DNA of 37,462 nt from Streptomyces murinus (GTDB lineage Bacteria > Actinomycetota > Actinomycetes > Streptomycetales > Streptomycetaceae): positions 1 to 37,462 of the forward strand of contig NZ_MUNF01000059.1 of assembly GCF_002154555.1 (NCBI RefSeq), written 5' to 3'. Made by a program: the position numbers and the translations under genes. Shown here in pieces: positions 10,070 through 37,462 of the stretch. Every line of letters begins with the position of its first letter. Position 1 is the stretch's first letter. The notes beneath the pieces were generated by a model. It worked only from the letters and a program-made list of their open reading frames with translations. It ran no database searches and was not told where the DNA came from.

Positions 10070-11599
10070 CTACGACTTGACGGGCACCCGTGACACCTCG
10101 CGTGCCCGCAGGAGATCACTCAGCACGCGCACTGGTGACGTGGCACTCATGGCCAAACGCGCGTCGAGTGCTGCCTCCCACTGCTCGGTCAGCCCCAGCA
10201 TGAGGCGCTTGCGCATGCCTGGGGTGACGTGGGCGTAGCGCGCCGAGACTGAGCCGTCGATGTGGCCCATGCGTTCGTCCATGAGCACCTTCTCGGTTCC
10301 CAGGTCCTCCATCATCGTCCGGTGGGTGTGGCGAAGGCCGTGGGGCGTGAGCCCCTTGGCTATCGGGAGCCAGCAGGCGTCGGCCCGTTCGCTGGCACCC
10401 CGACCCCGTGCCGGGACACCGGGCCACGGCTCGCCGAGCAGGGGCACCGGCCGTGGCTCCTGTGGTGCCTTCTTCGGGTACCAGCCGGAGACCGCCGGCG
10501 TGAACAGCCAGGTTGCGAAACCGTTCCTGCGCCAGTGGGCGGCATGCTCCGGCACGACGCCGCCCCGCACGAACCCGAGGTCCGCGATGGCCTGCTCGAC
10601 CTTCGCTCGCGTGGCCTCGGTGACGCGTTCGGGGTGGTTGAGCACGTTGGACACCGTGCCGGTCGAAACGTCGGCACGACGGGCGACGTCGACGAGCTTC
10701 GCGCCCTGGTGGCCCCCGGTACGGGCCGCGCCCTGTCCTCGGAAGACGTAGGTCTTGCCGTGACAGAGGCACGGCTTGGGCTTCGTGCGGGCGATGTGGT
10801 TCGCGACCAGCGCGGACAGCCAGTCCATCGAGTCGATGGTGCGGTAGCTGTCGTCCTTCGGCGGGCAGCGCACCAGCTCCCCCGTGTCGAGCTCGTACAG
10901 CTGCCACTCGACCCGGACGGCTCCAGGGCGGACGAACGCGGTCTCCAGGCCCACGATCTCGCCCCAGCGCATGCCGGTGTACCCCTTGAGGACCACGGCG
11001 ACGAACTCATCGTCACGGCCGGAGAGCAGGGCGGCGCGCTCGGCGGTCAGCAGGATGCCGAGCGCGTCGGTGACCACCTTCTCCGGACCACGGTCTCGGG
11101 AGCGGCCGGCGCGCTTACCCCGTCCGCGCCGCCGAGCGGCCGGGTTGGATGTGATCAGGCCCTCGTCGATCGCGTCCTCGAAGATCAGGTGGAGTGTCGA
11201 GCGCCAGGTCTTGACGCTGGAGGCCGCGTATAGGGCCTTCTCCTTCTTCTCCCATAGGTCGACGTCCGTGCGCAGGATGCCGGCGAGCGCCTTGTCCTCG
11301 AACTCGGGGAGCAGGTGCTCCTCGATGTGGCGCTTGTAGTTCTGCATGGTCGAGGCCGCCAAGTCCTGGGCCTCATACCAGCGGTTCGCGTACTCGCCGA
11401 AGGTCTCCTGGCCGAGCGCCGGGTCGCGCCAGTCGCCGCGACGGTACTTGTTCTCGGCCTCGGCCGCTGCCCGTTGGGCCTCGCCCTTGGTGGCGAACCT
11501 GATCGCCTTGCCGTTCTCGTCGACGACCGTGTTGTGCTTGCCGGGCGCGACCTTGTACCGGCCGCGCCAGTAGTTTCCGCGCTTCTCCGCGAAACCCAA
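10070..11599 (-). CDS. int: Tyrosine integrase with embedded LacI-type helix-turn-helix
   Basis: 509-residue site-specific recombinase that should integrate the element at tRNA-Pro. The start is TTG 11599 (MGFAEKRGNYW) behind GGGGGA. An arm-binding N-terminus (1-60) and SAM-like core-binding domain (65-155) precede the catalytic domain: TGMRWGE (R211), HGLRH (H420, R423), GHID (H446) and nucleophile Y455 in SARYAHV. Between R211 and the HxxR box there are about 210 residues, far more than usual. Residues 300-345 of this stretch (AKLVDVARRADVSTGTVSNV, then LNHPERVTEATR) are a clear LacI/GalR helix-turn-helix with its hinge-side helix. All catalytic residues are present, so it is not simply broken. 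It lies 51 bases downstream of the xis-like gene. Confidence 0.95.
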   Translation of the reverse strand: MGFAEKRGNYWRGRYKVAPGKHNTVVDENGKAIRFATKGEAQRAAAEAENKYRRGDWRDPALGQETFGEYANRWYEAQDLAASTMQNYKRHIEEHLLPEFEDKALAGILRTDVDLWEKKEKALYAASSVKTWRSTLHLIFEDAIDEGLITSNPAARRRGRGKRAGRSRDRGPEKVVTDALGILLTAERAALLSGRDDEFVAVVLKGYTGMRWGEIVGLETAFVRPGAVRVEWQLYELDTGELVRCPPKDDSYRTIDSMDWLSALVANHIARTKPKPCLCHGKTYVFRGQGAARTGGHQGAKLVDVARRADVSTGTVSNVLNHPERVTEATRAKVEQAIADLGFVRGGVVPEHAAHWRRNGFATWLFTPAVSGWYPKKAPQEPRPVPLLGEPWPGVPARGRGASERADACWLPIAKGLTPHGLRHTHRTMMEDLGTEKVLMDERMGHIDGSVSARYAHVTPGMRKRLMLGLTEQWEAALDARLAMSATSPVRVLSDLLRAREVSRVPVKS

Positions 11600-25737: not shown

Positions 25738-26361
25738 GTGAATGCTGACGAATTGGGGCGCTGGGCACCTGAGCGTCCAGAAGACATGGCTGACCTTTTC
25801 GCCAAGGCGGTCTTCCCATGGTGGATCGCCGGCGGGTACGCGATCGAACTCGCGGTCGGTCGTGAGCTGCGCCCGCACGGCGACCTCGACGTCCTAATCC
25901 TCCGCCGCGACCAAGCCCTCCTACGTGATCTTCTGGCTGGCTGGGATCTGTCCGTAGCTGATCCGCCTGGTCTGGGGCGATTGCGTCCGTGGCATTCTGG
26001 GGAGGTTCTTCAGCCGCCCCTCCACGACATCTGGTGTCGGCGTACGCCGGAGGCACCCTGGTCGGTGCAGCTCATGCTGGACGAGTCTGAGGGTCACGAG
26101 TGGGTCTCGCGGCGCACCCCGCAGATCCGGCTTCCGATCGAGCGGGTGGGGCGGACGAGCGCAAGCGGCATTCCCTATCTCGCACCCGAGGTGCAGCTCT
26201 TCTATAAGGCGAAGGCGACGCGGGACAAGGACGAGACCGACTTCGAGGCGGTTCTGCCGCTGCTGGAGGAGGGACAACGCGTCTGGTTGGCGGAGGCGAT
26301 CAAGGTGATCGCGCCGGACCACCCCTGGCTTCGCCGACTCCTGCCGGTCAGCCGAACGTGA
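25738..26361 (+). CDS. Aminoglycoside-adenylyltransferase-like nucleotidyltransferase
   Basis: 207 residues from GTG 25738 behind GGAGG. The signature WWIAGGYAIELAVGRELRPH then GDLDVLILRRD (G32-G33, D49, D51) belongs to the ANT(2'')/LinB-like group of antibiotic nucleotidyltransferases; a later DIW aspartate may complete the triad, and APEVQLFYKAKATRDKDETD is a typical C-terminal motif. Many Streptomyces members have no known substrate, so resistance should not be assumed. Its 3' end overlaps the convergent PPC gene by 14 bp. An operator-like motif upstream links it to the radical-SAM operon. Confidence 0.85.
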   Translation: MNADELGRWAPERPEDMADLFAKAVFPWWIAGGYAIELAVGRELRPHGDLDVLILRRDQALLRDLLAGWDLSVADPPGLGRLRPWHSGEVLQPPLHDIWCRRTPEAPWSVQLMLDESEGHEWVSRRTPQIRLPIERVGRTSASGIPYLAPEVQLFYKAKATRDKDETDFEAVLPLLEEGQRVWLAEAIKVIAPDHPWLRRLLPVSRT

Positions 26362-26806
26362 GCAGCGGAACGTCGTAGAGGTCGGGGTTCAGGGGCCGGG
26401 TCATCATGGGCGACGTGACCTCCACGATCAGCAGTTCGCTGAGGAACTGGACCTTGGCGCTGAGGAGGTGGCTGGTCCTGCCGTCGGCCGACTGGGCCTT
26501 CAGACCGGCGGAGACGTGGATGTGCGGGAGTATTCCGCCGGTGGCGGGGTCATGGGCAAGGGTGCCGGCGCCGAACGCCTCGACGTTGGTGACGTACGTC
26601 TTCGCCCAGACCGGTGCGTCCGGGTCCGCGAGCTTCTCGCAAGCACCCACGATCTCAGCCTCCGCGAAGGCTCCGATGAACGAGGGGATATAGCCCTGCC
26701 GGACGCCGTTGCCCCGGCAGAAGGCGGACAGCGCCTCGAAGAAGTCCTCCCCGTGGTCGAAGGTGACGCCGAAGGTACGACCGACGGTCAGCTCGTGAGC
26801 ACGCAT
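26348..26806 (-). CDS. PPC (DUF296) domain protein
   Basis: 152 residues from ATG 26806 (GGAGA upstream). A single PPC/DUF296 domain, the plant-prokaryote conserved fold, with the usual order: strand ELTVGRTFGVTFDHGEDFFE, helix, GYIPSFIGAFAEAEIVG, ILPHIHVSAGLKAQSADG and LLIVEVTSPMMTRPLNPDLY. Bacterial stand-alone members are trimers of unknown function; the histidines in PHIH may bind metal or ligand. It lies 26 bp downstream of the asparaginase gene and is likely co-transcribed with it. Confidence 0.88.
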   Translation of the reverse strand: MRAHELTVGRTFGVTFDHGEDFFEALSAFCRGNGVRQGYIPSFIGAFAEAEIVGACEKLADPDAPVWAKTYVTNVEAFGAGTLAHDPATGGILPHIHVSAGLKAQSADGRTSHLLSAKVQFLSELLIVEVTSPMMTRPLNPDLYDVPLLTFG

Positions 26807-26832
26807 GTGCGGGTGTCTCCTCAGAGGTGGGA

Positions 26833-27834
26833 TCAGCGGGCGGAGGCGGTGGTGAAGGTCTCGCGGACCGTCGCTCCGTCGGCGCCCTGGGCGAGCAGAG
26901 CGTGCAGGAGGAGCCGCGCCTGGTACGGGCCGAGGTCTCCGGCGCCGATGAGCCCACGGCCGAGGAGGTCCTTCTCGGAGCCGGGGAAGCCGTACGTGTC
27001 GGACAGGACGGGGCCGTTGCCGATGCGGGAAGCGAGGACCACGGGGATACGGGACGCGAGCTTGGTGAGCCCTTCGACAAGGCGCTCCGGGACGTGGCCG
27101 ACACCGAAGGCCGCGACCACGAGTCCGTCGCAGTTGCCGTCCCACAGGTCGAGCAGGGTGCCGTCGTCGCCGAGGGTGACGGTGTAGAGACCGACGCGCG
27201 CCTCACGGTCGGGGGCGCCGACCAGCGGTCCGCGGGACGGCAAGCCGCCCACCATCCGCACCCGGTTCTCCGCGATTCGCGCGATCGGGCCGCTTGCTGG
27301 TGAGGTGAAGGCGGCGGGGCTGGTGGTGTGGGACTTGCGGACGGTCCGGGCGGAGTGGACCTCGTCGCCGAGTACGACGAGGCAGCCGACTTCGCTGAGT
27401 CCAGGGTCGGCGGCGGCCAGGACGGCGGCATGGAGGTTGGCCGGGCCGTCGGCGCCGGGCAGGGTGGGGTTGCGCATCGCGCCGGTGACGACAACCGGCT
27501 GCTCGTGGCCGTGGTAGAGGTCGAGGAGGAAGGCGGTCTCCTCGATGGTGTCGGTGCCCTGCGTGATGACGACCCCGTTGACCTCTCCGGTCTCCAGCTC
27601 CGCCGCGATCGCGGCCGACAGTGCGGTGAGGTCCTCGAAGGTCAGGGAAGCGCCGGGCAGGCGTCGGAAGTCCCGCACCTTGAGACCGATGCCACTCGTG
27701 GCCAACGCGGGTACCGCGGCGAGGAGTTCATGGGCCGAAAGCGCCGGCACGACGCCTCCGGTGGTGGGATCCGTGGTCATGGCGATCGTGCCGCCGAGGG
27801 AGAAGACCGCCACGTTCCTGACCGACTCCGTCAT
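26833..27834 (-). CDS. Asparaginase family protein
   Basis: 333 residues from ATG 27834 with GGGGAG seven bases upstream. The two threonine motifs of L-asparaginases are present: GGTIAM with T16 and QGTDTIEE with T94-D95. TGAMRNPTLPGADGPANLHA and SARTVRKSHTTSPAAF supply the remaining active-site region. There is no signal peptide, so it is cytoplasmic, releasing ammonia from asparagine or a related amide. It sits 58 bp downstream of the zinc-ribbon regulator and 26 bp upstream of the PPC gene on the same strand, suggesting a three-gene leftward unit. Confidence 0.93.
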   Translation of the reverse strand: MTESVRNVAVFSLGGTIAMTTDPTTGGVVPALSAHELLAAVPALATSGIGLKVRDFRRLPGASLTFEDLTALSAAIAAELETGEVNGVVITQGTDTIEETAFLLDLYHGHEQPVVVTGAMRNPTLPGADGPANLHAAVLAAADPGLSEVGCLVVLGDEVHSARTVRKSHTTSPAAFTSPASGPIARIAENRVRMVGGLPSRGPLVGAPDREARVGLYTVTLGDDGTLLDLWDGNCDGLVVAAFGVGHVPERLVEGLTKLASRIPVVLASRIGNGPVLSDTYGFPGSEKDLLGRGLIGAGDLGPYQARLLLHALLAQGADGATVRETFTTASAR

Positions 27835-27892
27835 TCCCCTGCTCCCCTGTCCGGACGCCGCCGAGCACTGCCTCACGAGTGGTTCACGCAGG

Positions 27893-29455
27893 CTATCGGG
27901 TCGGCGCCGTCCGGGTACGCGGAATGATCACCATCTGCTCGGCCACGAACCGGCAGGCGGCCTCCAGCCCTTCGAGGCCGAGCAACCGGCTGCGCGGCCG
28001 GGCAAGCCGCTCCGTACCGGCCACCGACAACTGTGCGCACCGGCGACCGAGCCAGGAGGCGTCGAGGCCGAGGTACTCCGCCGTTGCCGCAAGGCGCTGC
28101 CCTGCCTGCCCTGCCGCCGTGGCCGAGTGCTGGCTGACGTGGCCCGTCACATCGGCGAACGTCCGCAGGGCTCCCGGCCGCGCGGTGACCGCGAGGCGAG
28201 ACGCCCCCTCGGTCCGTACCCATGAGGCGATAACGGCCCGGCGCCCGTGGGAGAGCGCGAAGCCGTCGGTGTGAGCGAAGCCTCCGTCGTCGGTCACCCA
28301 GGTGCGGATGCCGAAGGACTCCATGAGCGCGATGGCGAGGAAGAGCAGAACGCGCTCGTACGCGGGTGAGGAGGCGACAGCACTCTCGGGGATGCAGAAC
28401 CCCCGGCCGCTGGTACCGCCCGGACTCCGGGGTGCCATTCGTTCGAGGTAGCGGTATTTGTGCCGGAAGAACAGCCACGTGGCAGCCTCTTCACCGCGCT
28501 GCTCCCTGGTCCAGAAGACGGGCGCGTCGCCCAGGTGGTCACGGTGGCCCAGGATGTACCGGGCCGCGGTCTCCGAGCCGATCAGCATCCGGGACACTTC
28601 GGTCAGGCTCTGGTCGGAGGCGGCTGGTGAACCTGGGGAAACGGTGAGCGACGCCAGCGATGTGTGCAGGGCTTGGTCGTCGCCGAGAAGTGCCGCCTCG
28701 AAGCCGGACACGGCCCAGAGGATGCCGTAGGTCAGATCGTCCAGTTCGTACGCGGCGGGGATGTCGAGCGGGGTGGAGGCGGTAGCGCGTACGCCGCTCG
28801 ACCGGGCGTCGGTGACGAACTGCCGGACCGCCCCGTCCACCGTGCGGTTCGCGACGACGAGCGCGCGCATCGGCATGGCGCGCCAGGCATCCAGCTCCGG
28901 GCGGGAATCGAGCCTCAGGCTGTCCCCGAGGAAGGAGGCCGCGGGAAGGGACAACGCAGGAAGCGCCGTCGTCGGGACGGACCGGCCGGCGGGTAACAGA
29001 AGCTGACCCGGCCCTTCGGACAGCGTTGCATACCCACGGGCTCCGGTACCCGCCGTTCCCGGCCGGCCCGTGGAGTGCGGGATGTGCGGATCGGCCGTGG
29101 GCAGGAGCCCGAGCAGCTCCTCCGGGACTCCGAGCGCATCGGTCCACTGGACGAACTGCCGTCGGTCGCGGATCTGTTTGAGCCCTCGTTCCAGTCTGCT
29201 GACCTCGGCCTGGTCGATGCTGACCATCCGCGCCACGCCGGCCTGGGAGAGGCCCGTGTGCTTCCGGAACAGCTTGACGACGGTGCCGAGGTCCCATGCA
29301 GCCACGGCTCGCCGGACCGTCGGATCACGCCAGAAGGCCGGGTCGGCCCGTCGGGCGGCCGGCCCGCCCTGGCACGAGGCGCATCGTTTACCGGCATTGA
29401 AGCGGCTGAGAAGGGCACCGCAGCGCGTACACCGCCGCTGTCCGCTGTCGACCAT
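27893..29455 (-). CDS. Zinc-ribbon plus XRE-type transcriptional regulator
   Basis: 520 residues from ATG 29455; ATG 29464 is also possible. A four-cysteine knuckle at the N-terminus (CTRCG and CASC: C9, C12, C25, C28) precedes an XRE helix-turn-helix at about 56-110 (KHTGLSQAGVARMVSIDQAE, VSRLERG). The remaining 400 residues form a helical sensor-like region (DIPAAYELDDLTYGILWAVS; ATWLFFRHKYRYLERMAP; LALMESFGIRTWV). It is divergent from the radical-SAM operon, with 156 bp between starts holding an operator-like motif, so it is the likely regulator of that operon and of itself. The ligand is unknown. Confidence 0.85.
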   Translation of the reverse strand: MVDSGQRRCTRCGALLSRFNAGKRCASCQGGPAARRADPAFWRDPTVRRAVAAWDLGTVVKLFRKHTGLSQAGVARMVSIDQAEVSRLERGLKQIRDRRQFVQWTDALGVPEELLGLLPTADPHIPHSTGRPGTAGTGARGYATLSEGPGQLLLPAGRSVPTTALPALSLPAASFLGDSLRLDSRPELDAWRAMPMRALVVANRTVDGAVRQFVTDARSSGVRATASTPLDIPAAYELDDLTYGILWAVSGFEAALLGDDQALHTSLASLTVSPGSPAASDQSLTEVSRMLIGSETAARYILGHRDHLGDAPVFWTREQRGEEAATWLFFRHKYRYLERMAPRSPGGTSGRGFCIPESAVASSPAYERVLLFLAIALMESFGIRTWVTDDGGFAHTDGFALSHGRRAVIASWVRTEGASRLAVTARPGALRTFADVTGHVSQHSATAAGQAGQRLAATAEYLGLDASWLGRRCAQLSVAGTERLARPRSRLLGLEGLEAACRFVAEQMVIIPRTRTAPTR

Positions 29456-29507
29456 GGTCGGCATTCTCCCTCGCTCTGTGATCACCCGGGCACGTTCCGC
29501 TGATGGG

Positions 29508-29611: not shown

Positions 29612-30373
29612 GTGACCTCCTTGACCCTGCCACCCCGGCCCCCCGGTTCGCCGCCGCTCGCCCATGCCTGGCAGACGCTGGCGGACGGGCTGCTGACCCA
29701 GCGGCTCCATCTCCACCTTGACGAATGGCGGGCTGCCGTCGCCGAGGAAAAGACGCTGCCGGACGTGCCAGGCGCCGATGTCTCCGCGCTGGCCCAACGC
29801 CCGTCTCCGCTGCCGGCAAGTGACGAGTCCGCGATGGCGCTGCTGGGGGACGCCGGGCTCGGCTTCTGGTGGGAGCTGCCCCAGAGGCATGGAGTGGAGT
29901 CGCGGAACCAGCGCGGGGCGCTCCACCGCGCCGCCGACACCGCTGCCCAGAATCTCCTCGTCGAGCAGTCCGGGGCGTCCTGGTCCGACGCTGTGATCGC
30001 CGTCAGCGGCGCCGCCGCGTGGTGGGTGGGCTTCTTCGCGGTCATCCGCCACCGCGGGGTGCACCACATCACGCTGGAGCCGCACCCGAGCCCGGTCCAT
30101 GAGCAGGCCCTGGGCACCGCCGTGAGCGTCGTGGCCCACGGCATGGCCACGCGGGTGCTGGAGACGGCGCTGCGCGACTCCGCCGACGACCAGGCCCTCC
30201 GCGCCACGTACTGCCGGGCCATCGAGGTCGGTATCTGCGCCGAGCCCGAGCTACCGCGCCTCGTCGACGAGTTGGCGGAGCTGCGGCTGGTGGACCTGGT
30301 GTCCACCACGGCCCGCTGGCGCGGCCGTTTCACCAAGTACGCCGGCGGCACGGGGGCGGGGCAGGTCGAATGA
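29612..30373 (+). CDS. Unrecognised protein, first gene of the radical-SAM operon
   Basis: 253 residues from GTG 29612, eight bases after GTGAGGA. Mostly helical and soluble. A Pro-rich N-terminus is followed by LAHAWQTLADGLLTQRLHLH, a middle with aromatic residues (GLGFWWELPQRHGVESRNQR; SGAAAWWVGFFAVIRHRGVH) and a charged C-terminus. No cofactor-binding signature seen. It ends in an ATGA overlap with the kinase-like gene, so the two are translationally coupled. Confidence 0.75.
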   Translation: MTSLTLPPRPPGSPPLAHAWQTLADGLLTQRLHLHLDEWRAAVAEEKTLPDVPGADVSALAQRPSPLPASDESAMALLGDAGLGFWWELPQRHGVESRNQRGALHRAADTAAQNLLVEQSGASWSDAVIAVSGAAAWWVGFFAVIRHRGVHHITLEPHPSPVHEQALGTAVSVVAHGMATRVLETALRDSADDQALRATYCRAIEVGICAEPELPRLVDELAELRLVDLVSTTARWRGRFTKYAGGTGAGQVE

Positions 30374-31056
30374 ACCACCGCTATCCGTTCATCGTCATCG
30401 AGGGGCTCGACGGCACCGGCAAGACGACGCTGCGCAAGGGCCTGTTCCGGCTCTGGGAGGGGCTTTACGGCGTCACCCCGCTGTGCGTGCTCACCACCAA
30501 CTTCCTCGCCGCCGACCAGGCCGCCGCCATCGTCACCGGTAAGTACCAGCCGAACGCCGGGAACCGTGACGCCTACCTGTCCGCGATCGCGTCGGACAAG
30601 CGGGCCACGCTGGATCGCCTTGTGCTCCCTCAGCGACCGGCCCGGCCCGTGATCGCGGATCGCTGGCTGCTCAGCGAGCTGGCCTTCTTCGCCGTGAAGC
30701 ACGGCATGAGGGCGTCGGAGACGTACGAGACGCTGGCCGCGCACCTCACCGTGGCCCCCGATCTCACGCTCGTCCTGGACCTGGAGACCGACGCCTCGAT
30801 GAGCCGGGCGCAGGCCCGACAGGGAGACGCCGTCCGAGCCGACTGGGACGTGCACGACGTGCAGAGCCGGGTTCGTGAGACCTATGAGGCCGTGGTCACG
30901 AAGCCCGACCAGTTCCCGCTCCTCGGCGACGTGGTCCGCCTGGATGCCCGCCGCCCCCGGTCCGAGGTGCTGCTCGCCGCCTGGGACGTACTGCGCGATC
31001 GACAGCTGGTACCGCCCATCGGCGCCCACACGGAAGGAGGAGAGACCCGTGACTGA
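30370..31056 (+). CDS. Thymidylate-kinase-like P-loop kinase
   Basis: 228 residues. The N-terminus FIVIEGLDGTGKTTLRKGLF (Walker A 12-20) and VIADRWLLSELAFF (DR motif near 97) match thymidylate kinase. VAPDLTLVLDLETDASMSRA then QARQGDA corresponds to the LVLD strand and lid region. A housekeeping tmk is expected elsewhere, so this copy probably phosphorylates a pathway-specific nucleotide or other acid. The 31056 stop overlaps the next gene's GTG by eight bases. Confidence 0.88.
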   Translation: MNHRYPFIVIEGLDGTGKTTLRKGLFRLWEGLYGVTPLCVLTTNFLAADQAAAIVTGKYQPNAGNRDAYLSAIASDKRATLDRLVLPQRPARPVIADRWLLSELAFFAVKHGMRASETYETLAAHLTVAPDLTLVLDLETDASMSRAQARQGDAVRADWDVHDVQSRVRETYEAVVTKPDQFPLLGDVVRLDARRPRSEVLLAAWDVLRDRQLVPPIGAHTEGGETRD

Positions 31057-31918
31057 CGGCACGAAGGCGAGGCGTCTGCGCGAGGCCCTCGACGACAGCG
31101 AGCGGAAGCACCCTCTCCTGGCGATCGGTGCGGTGAACGCACTCGCCGCGCATGTCGCGGCGGAGGCGGGCTTCGACGCCCTGTGGGTGAGCGGTCTGGA
31201 GGTGTCCGCCGCCTCCGGGCTACCGGACGCCAACGTCCTGGGTCCCCGGGACCTGTCCGACGTGGTCGCCTCCCTCGGCCGCGTCACCGAACTGCCTGTC
31301 ATCGTCGACATCGACAACGCGGGCGGCTCGGGGCGCACGGCGGAGCGGTTCGCGTACGACCTGATGCGCGCCGGAGCCGCGGCAGTGTGTGTCGAGGACA
31401 GCGCGTACCCCAAGTGCAACAGCTTCGCGGCCCACCGTGCCCAGAGCCTCGCCGACCGGGACCTGCTGTGCGAGCAGGTGGGGCGCATACGGAAGACCGC
31501 CGATGACGGCCTCGTGGTCGTGGCTCGCACCGAGGCCCTGATCGCCGGCGAGGACATGACCACGGCGATCGCCCGCGCCGAGGCGTACGCCGAGGCCGGA
31601 GCGGATGCGATCCTCATCCACTCCAAGGACGCGACCGGTGATCAGGCGCGGGCCATCGGACGGGCTTGGGACCACGGCGTGCCGCTGGTCAGCGTGCCCA
31701 CGGCGTTCCCCGACCTGAGCGCCGCCGAGCTCGGCGAGGCCGGCTTCCGCCTCTGCATCTACGCGAACCAGCTCAGCCGTGCCGCCCTTGCGGGTATGCG
31801 CACCGCCGCTCGTCAGTTCCAGCGCGGAGGGAGCTTCCGCTCCACCGGCGCGGGGTCCCTCGCGGAGGTCGGCGACCTGATGCGCGTCGGCGAACCGGAG
31901 GCGCTGTCATGCCTCTGA
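31049..31918 (+). CDS. PEP mutase/isocitrate lyase superfamily enzyme (PEP-mutase subgroup)
   Basis: 289 residues from GTG 31049 behind GGAAGGAGG. A TIM-barrel enzyme most like phosphoenolpyruvate mutase, which makes the C-P bond of phosphonates: ALWVSGLEVSAASGLPDANV (active-site loop), VIVDIDNAGG (two Asp for Mg), EDSAYPKCNS, VVARTEAL (Arg) and ILIHSKD (His). Methylisocitrate and isocitrate lyases would have KKCGH instead. The PEP-mutase signature is EDKxxxxxNS; here the Lys is Ser, while the second Lys and the NS pair remain. It may be a mutase, a phosphonopyruvate hydrolase or an enzyme with a new substrate. Confidence 0.85.
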   Translation: MTDGTKARRLREALDDSERKHPLLAIGAVNALAAHVAAEAGFDALWVSGLEVSAASGLPDANVLGPRDLSDVVASLGRVTELPVIVDIDNAGGSGRTAERFAYDLMRAGAAAVCVEDSAYPKCNSFAAHRAQSLADRDLLCEQVGRIRKTADDGLVVVARTEALIAGEDMTTAIARAEAYAEAGADAILIHSKDATGDQARAIGRAWDHGVPLVSVPTAFPDLSAAELGEAGFRLCIYANQLSRAALAGMRTAARQFQRGGSFRSTGAGSLAEVGDLMRVGEPEALSCL

Positions 31919-32379
31919 CGCCCGAACTGCCTCGGATCAGCGTCTCCGTGAAGGCGGCGATCGTGCGCGACGGTGCCGTCCTGCTCCTGTCATACGTCGA
32001 CGAGGCCGGGTTCCACTACAACCTCCCCGGCGGCAAGGCGCAGGTCGGCGAGGACCTGCGCCAGGCCGTGAACCGCAAGGTCGCGCAGGAGACCGGCCTC
32101 CAGGTCATGGCCCGGCGTCTGCTGTGCGTCGTCGAGTACGTCCCCGAGTCGTGGCAGGGCGAGTTCGGGGACGTACAGAAGGTTCAGTTCAACTTCCTCG
32201 CCGAGCAGGTGGACGACGCCGAGCCGCGCATGCCGGAGCCGCCGGACCCCATCCAGGTGGGCTTCGAGTGGGTTCCGCTGGAACGTCTGGGCGACGTGTA
32301 CCTGCTGCCCCGGATCAACCACCCGCTGTCGGCGGCGTTGAACGGGGAGCTCGCCGACCCCTTCGTGGACAGGTGGTGA
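31909..32379 (+). CDS. Nudix-fold protein with degenerate Nudix box
   Basis: 156 residues from ATG 31909, overlapping the preceding gene by 10 bp. The fold is recognisable (ISVSVKAAIVRDGAVLLLSY; FHYNLPGGKAQVGEDLRQAV; NRKVAQETGLQVMARRLLCV). The canonical REUxEE helix reads RKVAQE, losing two glutamates that normally bind the metal. It may not hydrolyse a nucleoside diphosphate linkage and could be a binding subunit or use altered chemistry. Co-transcribed in the radical-SAM operon. Confidence 0.85.
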   Translation: MPLTPELPRISVSVKAAIVRDGAVLLLSYVDEAGFHYNLPGGKAQVGEDLRQAVNRKVAQETGLQVMARRLLCVVEYVPESWQGEFGDVQKVQFNFLAEQVDDAEPRMPEPPDPIQVGFEWVPLERLGDVYLLPRINHPLSAALNGELADPFVDRW

Positions 32380-32384
32380 CCCTC

Positions 32385-33050
32385 ATGGATCCGACGTTGA
32401 AGGATCTGCGGGAGTGGCTGCTGCGGGAGCACTCCGGGACGGTCTGTGCCGACCGACTCAGCGTGATCGCCGACGAGCTCGCCGACATGACCGCACGCGG
32501 TCTGCCGGGAGCCGTAGTGGAACTCGGCTGCTACAGAGGCGCGACGGCCCTCTGGATCCGTAGCGTGCTCGACTCGCTGGGCGACTACGACCGCGAGATC
32601 CACGTTTACGACTCCTTCCAGGGCATGCCCGCGCCCGGCGCCGAGGACTCGGACCATCTGGCAGCGGGCGAGCTCCGGTCATCCCCGGACGACGTGCGCG
32701 CCACGCACGCGGCCTGGGGCAGGCCGACGCCGGTCATCCACCCAGGATGGTTCGACGAGACCCTTCCCAAGGAGCTGCCCAACGAGATCGCGTTCGCCTA
32801 CCTGGACGGCGACTTCTACGACTCGACCCTTACGGGACTCACGCACTGCGTCACCCGCATGACGCCGACGGGCGTGCTGCTCGTCGACGACTACGCGGAC
32901 GCCGCGGTCAATCCACGGGCCTGGGACGGACTGCCGGGGGTGAAGCGCGCCTGTGACGCGTACTTCGGCGCGCCGTCGCCCGTGACCGTCGTCGTCGGCG
33001 AGGGTGATCTCGCCTACGGCCGGTACGAGAAGCCAGGTTCCCTCGGATGA
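32385..33050 (+). CDS. TylF/MycF-like SAM-dependent methyltransferase
   Basis: 221 residues from ATG 32385, eight bases after AGGTGG; GTG 32376, overlapping the Nudix stop, is an alternative. The SAM motif VVELGCYRGATALWI (near 44) and the family's HVYDSFQGMPAPG, AFAYLDGDFYDST and LLVDDYADA (metal-binding Asp residues) identify the macrocin O-methyltransferase family, Mg-dependent sugar O-methyltransferases. The substrate here need not be a sugar. It is coupled to the next gene through ATGA. Confidence 0.88.
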   Translation: MDPTLKDLREWLLREHSGTVCADRLSVIADELADMTARGLPGAVVELGCYRGATALWIRSVLDSLGDYDREIHVYDSFQGMPAPGAEDSDHLAAGELRSSPDDVRATHAAWGRPTPVIHPGWFDETLPKELPNEIAFAYLDGDFYDSTLTGLTHCVTRMTPTGVLLVDDYADAAVNPRAWDGLPGVKRACDAYFGAPSPVTVVVGEGDLAYGRYEKPGSLG

Positions 33051-33970
33051 GCGCAGTCCTCGTGGTGCGCGGAGCGGCGGATGCGGGTGCGATCCGCCGC
33101 GCGCTGCCCGACGTCCTCGTGCACGATTTGCTGGACCTGAACTGGCCTCTGCCAGCCGACGCGGCCGTGGTCGTCCTGCGTTCCGGTGTCCGACTCGGCG
33201 AGCGGGAGCTCGACGCACTTCCTGGCCTGCGGCACGTAGTACGGACCGGCTCCGGCATCGACCACATCGACGTGAGCGCACTCCAACGCCGTGGGATCAC
33301 GCTGCACCGCAACGCCGAGGCCGGGGCGGCCGCCGTGGGCGAGTGGGTCCTCGCCGCTGCTCTCGCCCTGGCCCGGCGGATCCCCCTGGGGCAGCACGCG
33401 CTCATGCTCGGCCGCCACGAGAAGGAGGCGTGCATGGGTGTCTCACTCGGCACCCTGGCGGTGGGCGTCTGGGGCGCGGGTCCGGTGGGGCTGGCCGCCG
33501 GCCGGGCCCTCGCCCCACATGTGGCGCGCACGGCCTACGCCGCATGGCCGTCGAATCCCCCCGGTCTGCGGGAGGTGTCGCAGGCGGCGCTCATGGAGCA
33601 GTCGCAGGTGCACGTGGTCGCCCTGCCACTGCGTGCCACGACCCGACAGTTCATCGGCGAGGAATTCCTGGCACGCGTCGCTCCGCAACAGCCCCTGCTG
33701 ATCTGCGCCGGGCGGCTGGAGACCTTCGATATCGCCGCCTGTCTGCGGGCGTTGGCGGACGGCGGACTCTCGGGCCTCGCACTCGACCCGGTCGAGCGGG
33801 AGCACCTGCCGCTCCTCACCGGCTCCACGGTGCCGCTCAACCTCTTGGCCTCGCCCCACATCGGCGCCCAGCGGTCCGACGTGCGCGGCGCGCTCGACCG
33901 ATGGGCCGTCGATCTCCTCAGGGAGATCACCGCCGACGACGAGATCCTCATCGAAGGAGGCCGCTGGTGA
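33047..33970 (+). CDS. D-2-hydroxyacid dehydrogenase-like protein
   Basis: 307 residues. An N-terminal catalytic-domain half (GLRHVVRTGSGIDHIDVSAL), the NAD-binding GAGPVG at 143-148, then LLICAGRLETFD (catalytic Arg), LALDPVEREHLPLL (Glu region) and SPHIGAQ (catalytic His) give the layout of D-isomer-specific 2-hydroxyacid dehydrogenases. The acidic residue that usually selects NAD after the second strand is not evident, so cofactor choice is unclear. Next to a PEP-mutase-like enzyme, reduction of phosphonopyruvate or another 2-oxoacid is an attractive idea. It overlaps both neighbours by four bases. Confidence 0.85.
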   Translation: MSAVLVVRGAADAGAIRRALPDVLVHDLLDLNWPLPADAAVVVLRSGVRLGERELDALPGLRHVVRTGSGIDHIDVSALQRRGITLHRNAEAGAAAVGEWVLAAALALARRIPLGQHALMLGRHEKEACMGVSLGTLAVGVWGAGPVGLAAGRALAPHVARTAYAAWPSNPPGLREVSQAALMEQSQVHVVALPLRATTRQFIGEEFLARVAPQQPLLICAGRLETFDIAACLRALADGGLSGLALDPVEREHLPLLTGSTVPLNLLASPHIGAQRSDVRGALDRWAVDLLREITADDEILIEGGRW

Positions 33971-34833
33971 ACTCATCAGCACAGCTGCGCCGGGAGATCG
34001 CTGACGGAGTCGCCCGGGAGCTACTCGTCTCCGGCCTGGCTCGTGAGGTCTGGCTGGAGGGAGCGCTCGCCTGCGGCTTTGCCCACGCGGCCAGCGATAT
34101 CGACCTGCGCGGCATTGTGGACGGCGACCTTCCGACATGGGAGTCGCGCATCGTGGACGGCGTCCGTGTCGACCTCCAGGCGGCGGCGCCGCAGCGGGCG
34201 GAGGAACTCCGTCACCTGCTCCGCTCCTTCGACGTCCGCCGCGGCGACCTCGGATTGTTCCGCCGAGTACGCGCCTCGATGCACGACATCATGTGTCTGC
34301 GCACCGCTCTCTCATACGGCTCCGGACGCTGGGACCCGGTGCTCGATGCCGGGGAGCGCCAGGGCTACCGACGCTGGGCGGTCGCCGACCAGGCGGAGGT
34401 CGCTGCGAGTCTCGCCGAGGACCTGACCGGTCTCGTCGAAGACGGCCTGGCCGAACCCGCCCAAGTCGTGTGCCGGAAGCTGGAGACCTGCCTCACCGCG
34501 CTCGAGTGCGCGGCGGCTGGTCATCCGGTCCTGGGCGACAAGTGGCTGCCGCTGCTTGCCGGCGCTCCGTTCGGTCCGCCGATCGAGCCAGCCCACACGG
34601 AGACGTGGGAGTGGTTCCGCCCCGTTCAGCGACGCGTGGCCAGAGCGCTCCTGGGCTGCTGGCCCGTCGACGACCCCCTGCAGAAACCTCCCAACCTGGT
34701 TGCCCCTGACTCCGGCTGGCTACCGCAGCGGTACGCCGACGGGTGGTTCCTTCGCCGCGGCGACGTTCACATCCCCATCACCGGCGGACAGCTTCTCGGG
34801 TGGCTGTCCACGGTCTCCACCGATGGCGCGTAG
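33967..34833 (+). CDS. Pol-beta-superfamily nucleotidyltransferase-like protein
   Basis: 288 residues from GTG 33967 (GTGA overlap with the dehydrogenase). WLEGALACGFAHAASDIDLR shows the GS(x)nDxD layout with the Ser replaced by Ala (G32-A33) and Asp pair D44/D46; VRVDLQ adds the third Asp at D69. The rest is helical, with a Trp-rich region near 215-240 (TETWEWFRPVQRRVARALLG). The intact Asp triad suggests catalysis, perhaps nucleotidylation of a pathway intermediate. A gap of 30 bp separates it from the radical-SAM gene. Confidence 0.8.
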   Translation: MNSSAQLRREIADGVARELLVSGLAREVWLEGALACGFAHAASDIDLRGIVDGDLPTWESRIVDGVRVDLQAAAPQRAEELRHLLRSFDVRRGDLGLFRRVRASMHDIMCLRTALSYGSGRWDPVLDAGERQGYRRWAVADQAEVAASLAEDLTGLVEDGLAEPAQVVCRKLETCLTALECAAAGHPVLGDKWLPLLAGAPFGPPIEPAHTETWEWFRPVQRRVARALLGCWPVDDPLQKPPNLVAPDSGWLPQRYADGWFLRRGDVHIPITGGQLLGWLSTVSTDGA

Positions 34834-34863
34834 ACCGCGCCTCTCCTCCTCAGGAGTCCTCTG

Positions 34864-36723
34864 ATGCCCGTCACCCGCACCGCCCCCATCGACATGGAGA
34901 GCCTTTACGCCCCGCTGTCGAGCACCGGGCCGGACACGGCCGTCTCCGTCATCCTCAAGCTCCGCGGGGAGACCTGCGACATCGACTGCCTGTACTGCTT
35001 CGAAAAGCGCAAAGAGTCACCGGGCGGCGCCCGGATCAGCGCGGCACAGGTCCACCGCCTCGGTTCGATCTTCTCCGGGCGTCCGCTCAGCGTCGAACTC
35101 CACGGCGGGGAGCCCCTGACCGCCGGCCGGGAACGGATCGCGGAGATCCTGGACGCGCTCGCCACACAGCCGAACGTCATCCGCGTGAGCCTCCAGACCA
35201 ACGGCCTCCAACTCGACGACTCCTGGCTGGACCTGTTCGAGCGGCACTACCCGGAACTGGAGATCGGCATCTCCCTCGACGGGGACGCGCTGGGGAACTC
35301 GTGGCGAGTGGGCTACGACGGCCGCCCCACCTACCCGCGAGTGGTCGAAGCCCTGAAGCTCCTCGGCCGTCGGGAACGCCGCGCCGGCGTCATCTGCGCC
35401 GTCACCCCGTACGTCCTCGGCCGGGCCTCCGAGGTCATGGAGCACCTCGCATCCTTTCCCGCCGTGACGACGGTCAGCCTTGTGCCGTGCTTCGACGCGG
35501 CGGTCACCCGGTCGACCGCAGTGGTCGGATCTCGTGCGCCGACCAGTCGGGCACTCCAGCGAAGGGCCATCGGCCCCACCGGCCCGGCCTGGGCCGTCAC
35601 GCCTCGTCAATACGCCGACTTCGTGTTGGAGGCCGCCCACCACTGGGTCGCCGACGGCGTGTTCCGCCGCGTCAAGCTGGAGCCCGTCGTGTCCGTCATC
35701 CGCCGTCTGAAGGGTCTGGGGACCCGTTCCTGTCACTTCTCCGATTTGAAGTGCGACCATGTCCTCACCCTCTATCCCGATGACCGCCTGGGAAGCTGTG
35801 ACGAGCTGCCCTGGCCGCAGGCCGGCCTCGCCTCTCTCGGCGACGTCCACACCGAGGCGGACGTGGCCAGCGCCCAGGGCGGCTCTGCCTTGCTCCAGCA
35901 GGCACGCTCCCTGGTCACGAAGTGCACGACCTGCGACTACCGCGACACCTGCGGCGCGGGCTGCCCGGCGGTCCGGGTCCGCTTCGCCGCCGTCGGCGAC
36001 GAAGACGCGTACTGCGACCACCGCATGCGCCTGATCGACGGCGTCGCCGCCCTCCTAGCCCAGCCAGACCTCCCGCCCGGTGCCGCATGCTCCCGGTTGC
36101 GCTGGCGTCCCGTCCGCCCCAACAACATGCACCACGTCTCCGCCTTCCTGGCTCGCTGGGACGACCCCACCGCTCCCCGCTCGCCCGCGCGTCTCCAGGT
36201 CAGCGCCAACGGGAACATCAACACGGTCGGCCTCCCCGGCGTGCACGAGGCAGACGATCTCGACCCCCACCATCCCCAGTGGTACGAGGGCATCGAGCCC
36301 GGCATCCGCCCGGTCGTCGACGCGCTCACCTCAGGCTGGAACACCGTCACCTACGACAGCTGCCAGGGCCACGCCTACGCCGACCTCCACGGAGCCGAGC
36401 CCCGGTTCCTCTCGGTCGGCATCCTGCCGCGCGACCCCGCCGAGTACGCGCGTACAGCGGCGCGCCTGTGCCATGCCGCCAGCCGAGCCGAGTCCTCCCT
36501 GCCCGGGGCGTGTTCGCTGGTCCTCGGTCGCAGCGAACTCACGTGCCGCACCACCGGCCGGGTGTATCCGACGCTCGACCTCTATCTCGTGCCCGAAGCC
36601 GGCACCACGTCGGCCGAGTACTTCGAGGACCTCGCCCAAGCGGTGCACGTACTCACGGTGGCCCTGGCCGAAGCCGCCTTTGCCCCGCCCTCCACCTCCT
36701 GCGCGTGCGGAGGCGGGCAATGA
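34864..36723 (+). CDS. Radical SAM/SPASM enzyme with extra C-terminal domain
   Basis: 619 residues from ATG 34864 (TCAGGAG upstream). The radical SAM cluster motif is CDIDCLYC (C38, C42, C45); VELHGGEPL is the SAM-binding GGE. A SPASM-type region has CHFSDLKCDHVLTLYP, SCDELPWP and a run of cysteines in CTTCDYRDTCGAGCPAVRVR and YCDHR, suited to two auxiliary clusters. Such enzymes often modify ribosomal peptides, but no precursor gene is seen. Residues about 400-619 are a fused domain that I do not recognise, with NNMHHVSAFLARWDD, NTVTYDSCQGHAYADLHG and FLSVGILPRDPAEYA. Coupled to the oxygenase gene by ATGA. Confidence 0.9.
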   Translation: MPVTRTAPIDMESLYAPLSSTGPDTAVSVILKLRGETCDIDCLYCFEKRKESPGGARISAAQVHRLGSIFSGRPLSVELHGGEPLTAGRERIAEILDALATQPNVIRVSLQTNGLQLDDSWLDLFERHYPELEIGISLDGDALGNSWRVGYDGRPTYPRVVEALKLLGRRERRAGVICAVTPYVLGRASEVMEHLASFPAVTTVSLVPCFDAAVTRSTAVVGSRAPTSRALQRRAIGPTGPAWAVTPRQYADFVLEAAHHWVADGVFRRVKLEPVVSVIRRLKGLGTRSCHFSDLKCDHVLTLYPDDRLGSCDELPWPQAGLASLGDVHTEADVASAQGGSALLQQARSLVTKCTTCDYRDTCGAGCPAVRVRFAAVGDEDAYCDHRMRLIDGVAALLAQPDLPPGAACSRLRWRPVRPNNMHHVSAFLARWDDPTAPRSPARLQVSANGNINTVGLPGVHEADDLDPHHPQWYEGIEPGIRPVVDALTSGWNTVTYDSCQGHAYADLHGAEPRFLSVGILPRDPAEYARTAARLCHAASRAESSLPGACSLVLGRSELTCRTTGRVYPTLDLYLVPEAGTTSAEYFEDLAQAVHVLTVALAEAAFAPPSTSCACGGGQ

Positions 36724-37439
36724 TCCACATCGCCGAGACTCTGTCCATCCGTACTGTGGAGGGCTTCCTCAAGCCGGACGAGATCGAGCGACTCAGCCGC
36801 GTCATGGACGACACACTCGGCTCCCTCGGGCGCGACCGGTACGGCACGGCCCGCCGCACCACCATTCACGAGATCCCCGGTCACTCCCCCGCCGAGGCGC
36901 AGGACGTCTACGAGCCGGCCGGCCGGATCGAGATGACCGAGATCCCGTACGAGGCGACCGCCCTCCTCGACCAGGCCCTGAAGCTCCACATGGTCGCGAT
37001 CACGCGCACGCTGCCGTCGGTCACCGGCCACCGGCCGTGGATCTACCTCGAATATGGGGCCGGCCAATACATCACCGCGCATGCCGACGGTATCGCCCCC
37101 GATCCCCTCACCCGTCCCCGCCAGATCGCCGCCGCGACGGTCACGCTCACGGACATCCACGACACCGGCGGCGCGTTCTACGTGGAGACCACGGGCAGCG
37201 ACGCCGTCTGGACCGCCGACGAGGCGCCGACCGGGGCGGGTTACGCCCAGGGGATGCGTTTCGCACACGACGGGACGGACATGTCCTCCCGCTGGTTCCG
37301 CACCCTGCCCCGCACCCGATGGAGCGTCGCACCCGCTCCCGGCACGCTCGTGGTCTTCGGCAGCCAGCTCGTCCACGGCACCGAACCTGTCCGTGCTGGC
37401 CGCGTTCGCAAGTTCCTCACGCTCCTCGTCTCCGAGTAG
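36720..37439 (+). CDS. 2-oxoglutarate/Fe(II)-dependent oxygenase
   Basis: 239 residues. The facial triad is HAD (H121, D123) in QYITAHADG and the distal His near 219 in LVVFGSQLVHGTEPV; the Arg in RAGRVRKF binds 2-oxoglutarate. WIYLEYGAGQYI and AATVTLTDIHDTGGAFYVET match the prolyl-4-hydroxylase-like branch. The product is probably a hydroxylated or desaturated intermediate of the same pathway as the radical SAM enzyme. It overlaps the upstream gene by four bases, and the next gene begins 14 bases downstream. Confidence 0.9.
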   Translation: MIHIAETLSIRTVEGFLKPDEIERLSRVMDDTLGSLGRDRYGTARRTTIHEIPGHSPAEAQDVYEPAGRIEMTEIPYEATALLDQALKLHMVAITRTLPSVTGHRPWIYLEYGAGQYITAHADGIAPDPLTRPRQIAAATVTLTDIHDTGGAFYVETTGSDAVWTADEAPTGAGYAQGMRFAHDGTDMSSRWFRTLPRTRWSVAPAPGTLVVFGSQLVHGTEPVRAGRVRKFLTLLVSE

Positions 37440-37453
37440 GAGGCTTCGCCGCC

Positions 37454-37462
37454 ATGACCGGC
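37454..37462 (+). CDS. Start of a further operon gene (truncated by window end)
   Basis: ATG 37454, ten bases after GGAGG, begins MTG before the window ends. Orientation and spacing say the operon continues. Nothing can be said of the product. Confidence 0.55.

Follow-up and report, generated by a model that had tools for sequence, protein, structure and literature searches.

The operon at positions 29612-37439 of the analysed DNA, a stretch of 37,462 nucleotides from Streptomyces murinus that is called the window below, is very probably a peptide (RiPP-type) cluster, and the explanation favoured here, which we regard as probable, is that it represents a new RiPP-type cluster that also carries a phosphonate-type module. 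The RiPP assignment follows from a precursor-like peptide gene (P) and a peptide hydroxylase gene (Z), both located past the end of the contig, together with a radical SAM/SPASM protein (H) encoded in the operon.

Operon layout and gene families

The window sequence holds nine complete same-strand operon genes (A-I), and the operon is cut off by the contig end. The initial annotation had counted at least ten genes; the ATG at 37454 was considered as the start of a tenth and rejected because in relatives its frame does not match that of the conserved peptide ORF P. The features of the region are as follows.

N, 25738..26361, + strand: second nucleotidyltransferase-like gene (PF10706), found in 27 of 54 loci, the distant L054 and L113 among them
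PCC/DUF296-domain protein, 26348..26788, - strand: adjoins R in 24 of 34 clusters with C
Asparaginase-family protein, 26833..27876, - strand: adjoins R in 25 of 34 clusters with C
R, 27893..29485, - strand: divergent XRE-type regulator of 530 aa, in 26 of 34 clusters with C
A, 29612..30373, + strand: 253 aa, no family; helical body and unstructured C-terminal tail WRGRFTKYAGGTGAGQVE
B, 30370..31056, + strand: thymidylate-kinase-like P-loop kinase (PF02223, 43.7 bits)
C, 31049..31918, + strand: PEP-mutase clade enzyme in which EDSAYPKCNS replaces EDKx5NS (PF13714, 154 bits)
D, 31909..32379, + strand: Nudix-fold protein with degenerate Nudix box (PF00293, 44.3 bits)
E, 32376..33050, + strand: TylF-family O-methyltransferase (PF05711, 104 bits)
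F, 33047..33970, + strand: D-2-hydroxyacid dehydrogenase family, candidate phosphonopyruvate reductase
G, 33967..34833, + strand: pol-beta-type nucleotidyltransferase-like protein, three Asp retained
H, 34864..36723, + strand: radical SAM/SPASM protein whose C-terminal domain looks TYW3-like
I, 36720..37439, + strand: 2OG-Fe(II) oxygenase (2OG-FeII_Oxy_3 / PhyH)
Contig end, 37440..37462, + strand: 23 bp past gene I; P and Z come next in relatives

Overlaps of 4-10 bp, as originally described, were found at seven of the eight junctions (A/B 4, B/C 8, C/D 10, D/E 4, E/F 4, F/G 4 and H/I 4 bp), the exception being G/H with a 30-bp gap. N probably belongs to the cluster as well. No protease, exporter or aminotransferase was found among A-I, P and Z.

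Pfam and NCBIfam scans agreed with the families first assigned to B (thymidylate kinase-like), C (PEP mutase), D (Nudix), E (TylF), F (2-hydroxyacid dehydrogenase), H (radical SAM/SPASM) and I (2OG-Fe(II)), and A, annotated as an unknown protein, gave no family match over cut-off. The assignment of G as nucleotidyltransferase-like also held, though no Pfam or NCBIfam match over cut-off was obtained: D44, D46 and D69 are invariant in an alignment of 13 rows, giving a DxD and a third Asp. GA or GP stands in G where the usual nucleotidyltransferase motif carries GS, and its structural-database match was weak (1wot, E 0.034). The Nudix box of D is indeed degenerate, the canonical GX5EX7REUXEEXGU occurring in 0 of 48 D proteins, relatives included. 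A P-loop pattern was present in all 52 B proteins, GxGxxG and [SP]H[IVL]G patterns in 34 of 34 F proteins, and a loose HxD pattern in 45 of 45 I proteins, with the distal HGTxPVxxG in 41 of the 45; a search of I against the PDB returned nothing at E<=0.1.

The model of A has a mean pLDDT of 81.7 and falls below 50 solely at 240-253. The tail is nevertheless the most conserved stretch of the protein, with a mean column identity of 0.83 at 236-253 versus 0.46 at 14-235; its pattern occurs in 37 of 37 A proteins, with invariant Trp, Phe and Tyr and a fixed C-terminal Glu. Foldseek gave no match for A at E<=0.001. Two candidate relationships of A were rejected: similarity to 22ob (SjiH; best VIA Z 6.7) lies within the noise stated for helical models, and kinship with Z, suggested by an HxxxHH motif in A, met with loss of the motif in L108-L113 and an hhalign probability of 0.1.

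Precursor-like peptide and peptide-modifying enzymes

In relatives, I is followed by two further genes, P and then Z; the genome of the window has both on contig C447, across a gap of 18 bp as sized by reference to a relative. Reading past position 37462, which the initial annotation had proposed, therefore revealed both genes and overturned its statement that no precursor peptide is present; they had been missed because the contig stops there.

P is a precursor-like peptide of 46-58 aa with the invariant core T-x-H-[TS]-S-x6-W. An HMM built from nine seeds detected P at E<=1e-3 in 48 of 49 clusters, the 49th being L092 (E 0.0093), and also recovered non-seed loci (L054, E 9.5e-11; L134, E 1.2e-7), with the first match outside the clusters at E 0.64. 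Weak matches in L062, L090, L059 and L082 (second place), at E 0.64-0.94, were dismissed as chance. No Pfam or NCBIfam family was matched by P over cut-off; RefSeq annotates it as a 46-aa CDS (WP_153471719.1) on a Kitasatospora cathayae plasmid. The dN/dS values of P were mixed (0.11-1.32, 14 pairs), and the signal for the peptide is taken to be its invariant core, not this ratio.

Z was identified as an aKG-HExxH-type peptide beta-hydroxylase (TIGR04267, 58.3-73.4 bits against a cut-off of 40, in all six proteins tested), with HExxH in 49 of 49 proteins, and on the K. cathayae plasmid RefSeq names it 'HEXXH motif-containing putative peptide modification protein'. Z adjoins H in 49 loci, both with and without C.

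The best NCBIfam matches of H were sulfatase and cyclophane peptide maturases, and its best PDB match was ChlB (E 7.6e-12). CX3CX2C was found in 50 of 51 H proteins, the frame of L049 being broken, and SCxGH in 49 of 49; the SPASM model TIGR04085 was barely passed (27.7 bits, cut-off 27). The best VIA fold match of the C-terminal domain was 2qg3, titled TYW3 methyltransferase-like (Z 7.2, below 8; rmsd 3.5, 128 aligned), followed in rows 2-5 by PH1069 and an Aeropyrum protein (Z 7.2-5.5), which we take to be TYW3-like, and then by a row at 4.6; Foldseek gave no match for this domain at E<=0.001. In L054, L092 and L093 the two parts of H are separate genes. These comparisons place H among radical SAM/SPASM proteins of the peptide-maturase kind; it has in addition a domain of TYW3-like appearance. 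The locus thus has a short conserved precursor gene by its modifying enzymes, with Z and H as the peptide-modifying enzymes.

PEP-mutase-like enzyme and distribution of the clusters

TIGR02320 was the best NCBIfam model for C (204.1 bits, under the cut-off of 319.55), and the best PDB match was PEP mutase 5unc. Of 37 C proteins, 36 have EDSx5NS and the remaining one is truncated, while EDKx5NS occurs in none; the K of EDK, K116, is Ser in all 36 readable proteins. Aligned with the PEP mutase of mussel (1m1b) and with phosphonopyruvate hydrolase (2dua), window C retains K120, N122 and S123, 2dua having Thr at the N122 position, and also counterparts of Asp58, Asp85, Asp87, Arg159 and His190, which we take to be the catalytic residues. 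The C family is, on sequence grounds, a distinct clade of the PEP mutase family, with a long stem in the tree (1.62 changes per site), and the EDS variant is shared by a Bradyrhizobium protein named aepX, PEP mutase, in RefSeq. It appears likely that C makes phosphonopyruvate.

A member nested in the C clade with support 99/95, L055, has none of the operon (no A, H, P or Z), and its C adjoins a phosphonopyruvate-decarboxylase-like gene pair that matches TIGR03297 (63.3 and 58.1 bits), and an annotated aepY; sulfopyruvate decarboxylase models match the pair as well (54.5 and 27.4 bits), with no cut-off reached in either case. In 53 of the 54 loci searched, L055 being the exception, a decarboxylase-like gene is absent, as the initial annotation had reported for the window, and F accompanies C in 33 of 34 clusters (missing in L054). 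Its suggestion that a PEP mutase and a 2-hydroxyacid dehydrogenase could yield phosphonolactate is in keeping with this absence and with a route in a 2026 preprint, where phosphonolactate formation is one way to pull phosphonopyruvate forward (PMC12871164). A published phosphonate screen requires a perfect EDKx5NS match (PMC12723261); since the C clade has EDSx5NS instead, a motif screen of this kind would miss it, and such a filter leaves an entire clade of PEP mutase relatives out of sight.

The genes stay together elsewhere: 34 distinct clusters with C keep all or part of their order. C and H were cross-tabulated in the same 392 genomes of the genus, an unbiased sample of related genomes: all 15 genomes with C also have H, and C occurs in 15 of 25 genomes with H and 0 of 367 without it (Fisher p 7e-21; 2e-6 after a rough hand collapse of close relatives). 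The operon gene set is linked far beyond chance. The presence table is non-random, its loci having been found via C, H, A, P and plasmid matches of H and C; five of its 54 rows lie outside the 49 clusters, namely the window (Z on another contig) and L055, L094, L107 and L113 (without H or Z).

A, C and G occur together in all 34 clusters with C and in none of the 15 without C. E is present in 31 of the 34, and both E and I are absent from three (L110-L112), so neither performs a core step. P, H, Z and B recur together in several cluster types, including clusters without C, B being present in 49 of 49 clusters and in every type, and the phosphonate-type genes (A, C, G and usually F) are therefore read as a module added to a peptide system. 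L113 contains A and B without P, H or C, and genome G087 (L107) contains A, B and a truncated C below the threshold of the genome search, with no H in the stretch read.

Among 396 genomes of the phylum, A was found in two and P in one, both within the genus; among 200 genomes of the family, A was found in 10 and P in 13. Clusters of the window type are present in Streptomyces, Kitasatospora and Virgisporangium. Plasmid-borne examples are a window-type cluster in Kitasatospora cathayae and a cluster of type 2, which lacks C, in Streptomyces clavifer; tests can therefore draw on named strains.

Proposed pathway, alternatives and known systems

In the proposed pathway, P would be translated, with its N-terminal half serving for recognition, H would form a C-C bond in the core, for which the invariant candidates are His and Trp, Z (and I where present) would hydroxylate the core, and the TYW3-like domain or E would methylate. 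In the window type, C would turn PEP into phosphonopyruvate and F would reduce it to phosphonolactate, a reduction that would make the uphill C step run forward; B and G may then activate or transfer the phosphonate (or a phosphoryl or nucleotidyl group), most likely onto the hydroxylated peptide, while A may act as a scaffold or carrier via its conserved loose tail. Window-type members of the new RiPP family would thus carry, or be built with, a phosphonate. That the phosphonate ends up on the peptide is given slightly less than an even chance. Still more tentatively, these may be the first ribosomal peptides with a biosynthetic phosphonate, in which an EDS-type PEP mutase clade leads to phosphonolactate and a kinase/nucleotidyltransferase pair loads it onto a radical-SAM-modified, HExxH-hydroxylated peptide of a new TAHTS...W family.

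It is possible, but unlikely, that the cluster makes a RiPP without phosphonate, with C repurposed (e.g. as another lyase or hydrolase acting on a 2-oxo acid) and A, C, F and G making another small group for the peptide. The change from EDK to EDS in every readable C protein, the score of C under the curated PEP mutase cut-off, the long stem of its clade, and the lack of a decarboxylase-like gene in the clusters and of an aminotransferase are consistent with such a change of function, whereas the retained active-site counterparts with K120, N122 and S123, the EDS in the Bradyrhizobium aepX protein, and the coupling of the C clade to decarboxylase-like genes in L055 argue for a phosphonate enzyme. 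A free small-molecule phosphonate pathway, with P and Z forming an unrelated neighbouring operon, is very improbable. All nine window genes could work on a small molecule, TylF, nucleotidyltransferase and 2OG enzymes being common in phosphonate clusters, and L055 has C without A, H, P or Z; but Z adjoins H in 49 loci and P is found in 48 of them, with and without C, H is of the peptide-maturase kind, and among the 392 genomes none that lacks H reached the C threshold, although in the stretch read of G087 a truncated C is found with no H. Because a precursor-like peptide gene and a peptide hydroxylase gene lie past the contig end, a peptide pathway that includes a phosphonate module is favoured over a purely small-molecule one.

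The modified substrate could also be the C-terminal tail of A, with P as a second substrate or guide, which we consider distinctly unlikely. In the model the tail lacks structure, yet no part of A is more conserved, with its invariant aromatic residues and terminal Glu; besides an A whose tail is Gly-rich, L054 has YcaO and TfuA, which match McrA-glycine thioamidation models below their cut-offs. A is, however, absent from 15 of the 49 clusters with H and Z, so these enzymes cannot depend on it, and the tail may merely dock a partner. PADLOC matched B to PDC-M51B (47 bits) and VakA, H to pVip (31 bits), I to 2OG, and the type 2 kinase K to PD-T4-6 and other kinases, with no match for A, C, G or Z; these matches may indicate a defence role, a reading that was set aside because of P and Z.

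The RiPP-type cluster with a phosphonate-type module would connect ribosomal peptides with C-P bond phosphonates, two worlds of natural products, and offers a precursor family and a tailoring gene set that are directly expressible. Literature searches found no description of a pathway with this gene set, as first stated, nor of a pairing of RiPP and phosphonate-type genes.

In ChlBH-type RiPPs, a radical SAM protein fused to an aKG-HExxH hydroxylase forms a cyclophane and then beta-hydroxy Asp/His (PMC12636437). The present clusters resemble them in combining a radical SAM/SPASM protein, whose best PDB match is ChlB, with an aKG-HExxH hydroxylase and a short precursor in which a His is invariant, and a type 2 Z weakly matches 22nu and ChlH (E 0.02 and 0.05); they differ in that H and Z are separate genes, H has an extra domain, the precursor falls outside Pfam and NCBIfam families, and PEP-mutase-type, kinase, nucleotidyltransferase and Nudix genes are added. 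Valinophos-type phosphonate clusters reduce phosphonopyruvate to phosphonolactate and likewise pair a PEP mutase family enzyme with a 2-hydroxyacid dehydrogenase and no decarboxylase, whereas here the motif is EDS, not EDK, and the genes lie within a peptide-modifying operon. The cyclophane maturases FxsB, YhhB and AmcB share the radical SAM/SPASM architecture of H and are among its best NCBIfam matches, but H scores far under their cut-offs (98.9 of 370, 94.7 of 445 and 87.1 of 425 bits), the first of these scores being for the FxsB model TIGR04269. TYW3 is represented by 2qg3, the best fold match of the C-terminal domain of H, but with Z below 8 and a sequence identity of 9-16%, and in H the domain is fused to a radical SAM/SPASM protein.

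Conservation of the operon

The operon at the right-hand end of the window, on contig C637 of a 7.95-Mb draft genome, comprises nine complete genes (A to I) rather than the ten or more counted in the initial annotation. The features considered are as follows.

29612-37439, + strand: genes A to I, nine complete genes
25738-26361, + strand: N, a second nucleotidyltransferase-like gene (PF10706); 27 of 54 loci, the distant L054 and L113 among them, have it close to the cluster
26348-27876, - strand: asparaginase-family and PCC/DUF296 genes, accompanying a divergent regulator

Seven of the eight A-I junctions are overlaps of 4-10 bp, and G and H are separated by 30 bp. Family scans gave the same labels as those assigned earlier for B (thymidylate kinase), C (PEP mutase), D (Nudix), E (TylF), F (2-hydroxyacid dehydrogenase), H (radical SAM) and I (2OG-Fe(II) oxygenase), and likewise placed A in no family. 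The label of G as a pol-beta nucleotidyltransferase was backed in part: G had no match in Pfam or NCBIfam, but the three Asp residues of such enzymes are kept in an alignment of 13 relatives. Further upstream, an ORF at 10070-11599 (- strand) resembles a tyrosine-type integrase by eye and may mark a mobile region.

The gene-neighbourhood comparison proposed with the initial annotation indicated that the order A-B-C-D-E-F-G-H-I is kept in many Streptomyces, with identity down to about 40-60% in loci painted with the window proteins. The locus of Virgisporangium ochraceum (L054) is a rearranged outlier in which F is missing and H is split in two. A search of named genomes with C returned 34 loci, 22 of which carry the operon (L037-L054, L056-L058 and L067), among them L038 of Streptomyces sp. 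NRRL S-1022; the remainder were L055, which has C alone, and 11 loci with only distant relatives of C. H was found in 25 of 392 genomes of the genus and C in 15, every one among the 25 with H, while none of the 367 genomes without H yielded C at the search threshold (Fisher p 7e-21 for co-occurrence; 2e-6 once relatives were roughly collapsed by hand). In one of these 367, G087 (locus L107), the stretch read contains A and B together with a truncated C but no H.

The precursor-like gene P and the types of cluster

Reading beyond position 37462 through relatives, also proposed earlier, revealed two further genes. One is Z (about 300 aa), located after I or H. Each of the six Z proteins scanned scored above the cut-off of 40 for TIGR04267 ("aKG-HExxH-type peptide beta-hydroxylase"), with 58.3-73.4 bits, and the HExxH motif is present in 49/49. 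A conserved short ORF, P, sits in the roughly 300-bp gap upstream of Z. A profile built from nine P sequences recovered P in the clusters, including the non-seed loci L054 (9.5e-11), where P lies between C and D, and L134 (1.2e-7), where it lies directly after Z; the best match beyond the clusters had only E 0.64. Twenty P sequences have in common Phe10, Thr26, His28, Ser30 and Trp37, with constant Thr-to-Trp spacing. In the RefSeq annotation of the Kitasatospora cathayae plasmid NZ_CP115451, P is a hypothetical protein of 46 aa and Z a putative peptide modification protein; in that of the Streptomyces clavifer plasmid NZ_CP107794 (a type 2 cluster, see below), a short hypothetical protein, confirmed as P, stands ahead of the same Z product. 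The dN/dS values of P were mixed (0.11-1.32 over 14 pairs) and were not taken as proof.

In the genome of the window itself, Z and P are located at the end of contig C447, and in an alignment to L037 the ends of C637 and C447 are 18 bp apart. The precursor peptide reported as absent from the window is thus present in the same genome and was hidden by an assembly break. The interest attached to the operon was justified, but its key feature is the peptide gene concealed by the contig end.

H and Z together are carried by 49 of 54 distinct loci, among which were counted B in 49, P in 48 (the 49th, L092, at E 0.0093 only), the C-terminal domain of H in 48, D in 46 and I in 44. C occurs in 34 of these clusters, A and G in exactly the same 34, F in 33 (absent from L054) and E and I in 31 (absent from L110-L112). 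These counts define a constant set of P, H, Z and B, to which a module of A, C, G and usually F is added. The 34 clusters also include an asparaginase-family gene in 25 cases and a PCC/DUF296 gene in 24, some loci stopping too early to tell.

The 15 clusters without C are twelve of type 2, L092, L093 and L134, the last of which has E. Type 2 clusters have instead a protein-kinase-fold gene K, with HRDVxxEN in 12/12, and a gene Y; examples (L084, L082, L130-L133, L136) share the precursor family, H, Z, I and the thymidylate-kinase-like gene and have no PEP mutase. The family scan of L092 found an APH-type phosphotransferase, an AICAR-transformylase-like gene and others around the weak P; L093 was placed with it through matching gene order. 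By eye, this type also has a UDP-sugar-dehydrogenase-like gene, and L092 ABC-transporter-like genes. In type 2, L092 and the window type, B is accompanied by another gene resembling a phosphotransferase or nucleotidyltransferase (K, APH and G, respectively). This hints, short of proof, that the peptide receives a phosphorus group in all three. L054 has additional YcaO and TfuA genes, whose matches to McrA-glycine thioamidation models are under the cut-offs.

At L113:5996-8165 only N, A and B occur; P, H and C are missing from the stretch read, and the tail of A is more divergent. This locus may be a remnant or a separate system. In L081:8004-11523 (- strand), the radical SAM gene is broken into two parts about 1.6 kb apart; single broken frames in L044, L049 and L050 are possibly sequencing errors.

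The PEP-mutase-like protein C

The best NCBIfam model for C was PEP mutase (204.1 bits, below the cut-off of 319.55), and its closest PDB relative is 5unc, a PEP mutase. In alignment (mussel numbering), C keeps K120, N122 and S123, N122 being Thr in the phosphonopyruvate hydrolase 2dua. Of the 37 C proteins, 36 have Ser at K116, the Lys of EDK, as the only change in that motif, and the remaining one is truncated. C proteins formed one clade in a maximum-likelihood tree (support 100/100), on the mutase side under midpoint rooting with moderate support (89/85), and the L055 protein was nested within it (99/95). A Bradyrhizobium protein annotated by RefSeq as aepX PEP mutase (L138:2911-3768) likewise reads EDS rather than EDK and falls outside the clade, a hint that the substitution had more than one origin. 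PMC12723261 defines PepM through a perfect EDKx5NS match, and the C clade would escape screens of that kind.

The earlier statement that no phosphonopyruvate decarboxylase is seen in the window held: an annotated aepY (L137) matched both genes that follow C in L055 and nothing else across the 54 loci. That pair matches halves of phosphonopyruvate decarboxylase TIGR03297 (63.3 and 58.1 bits) and, more weakly, sulfopyruvate decarboxylase (54.5 and 27.4 bits), all below cut-offs. The usual drivers of the mutase reaction named in PMC12871164 are a decarboxylase, an aminotransferase or a 2-hydroxyacid dehydrogenase, the last yielding phosphonolactate; F fits this role as a candidate.

Proposed pathway and related systems

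CX3CX2C is present in 50 of 51 H proteins, and the SPASM match is marginal; the closest curated families, sulfatase and cyclophane peptide maturases, scored far under cut-off. The C-terminal domain of H, encoded separately in L054, L092 and L093, has an SCxGH motif in 49/49. The top fold match of its model (mean pLDDT 71.0) was the TYW3-like protein 2qg3 (Z 7.2, 128 aligned, rmsd 3.5), followed at ranks 2-5 by archaeal proteins (Z 7.2-5.5), which we take to be TYW3-like, and then a drop to 4.6. The TYW3 likeness is suggestive only.

The model of A is helical (mean pLDDT 81.7). Its pLDDT falls to near 60 at residues 1-10 and 151-160 and to under 50 only at 240-253. Residues 236-253 are its most conserved part (0.83 versus 0.46; next-best 18-residue stretch, 0.72), and a conserved, loose tail of this kind would be expected of a substrate, a carrier or a docking peptide.

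Gene content, order, linkage and motifs were read directly from the sequence, and from them we infer that P would be cross-linked by H, hydroxylated by Z and I, and methylated by E or by the TYW3-like domain. C and F would make phosphonolactate, which B and G would activate or transfer, with A carrying or presenting a substrate. A peptide pathway is very probable and formation of phosphonopyruvate by C fairly probable, while attachment of the phosphonate to the peptide is a tentative proposal, with the odds slightly against it.

The cluster is real and conserved, and apparently undescribed: among the open-access matches listed in PMC, no description of the operon, the precursor family P or a phosphonate-bearing RiPP was found. 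Valinophos is one comparison for the cluster. A further likeness is to ChlBH, a radical SAM-fused HExxH enzyme with which, according to PMC12636437, Asp and His are hydroxylated after cyclophane formation; given the invariant His and Trp of P, a cyclophane followed by hydroxylation would be the natural guess here as well.
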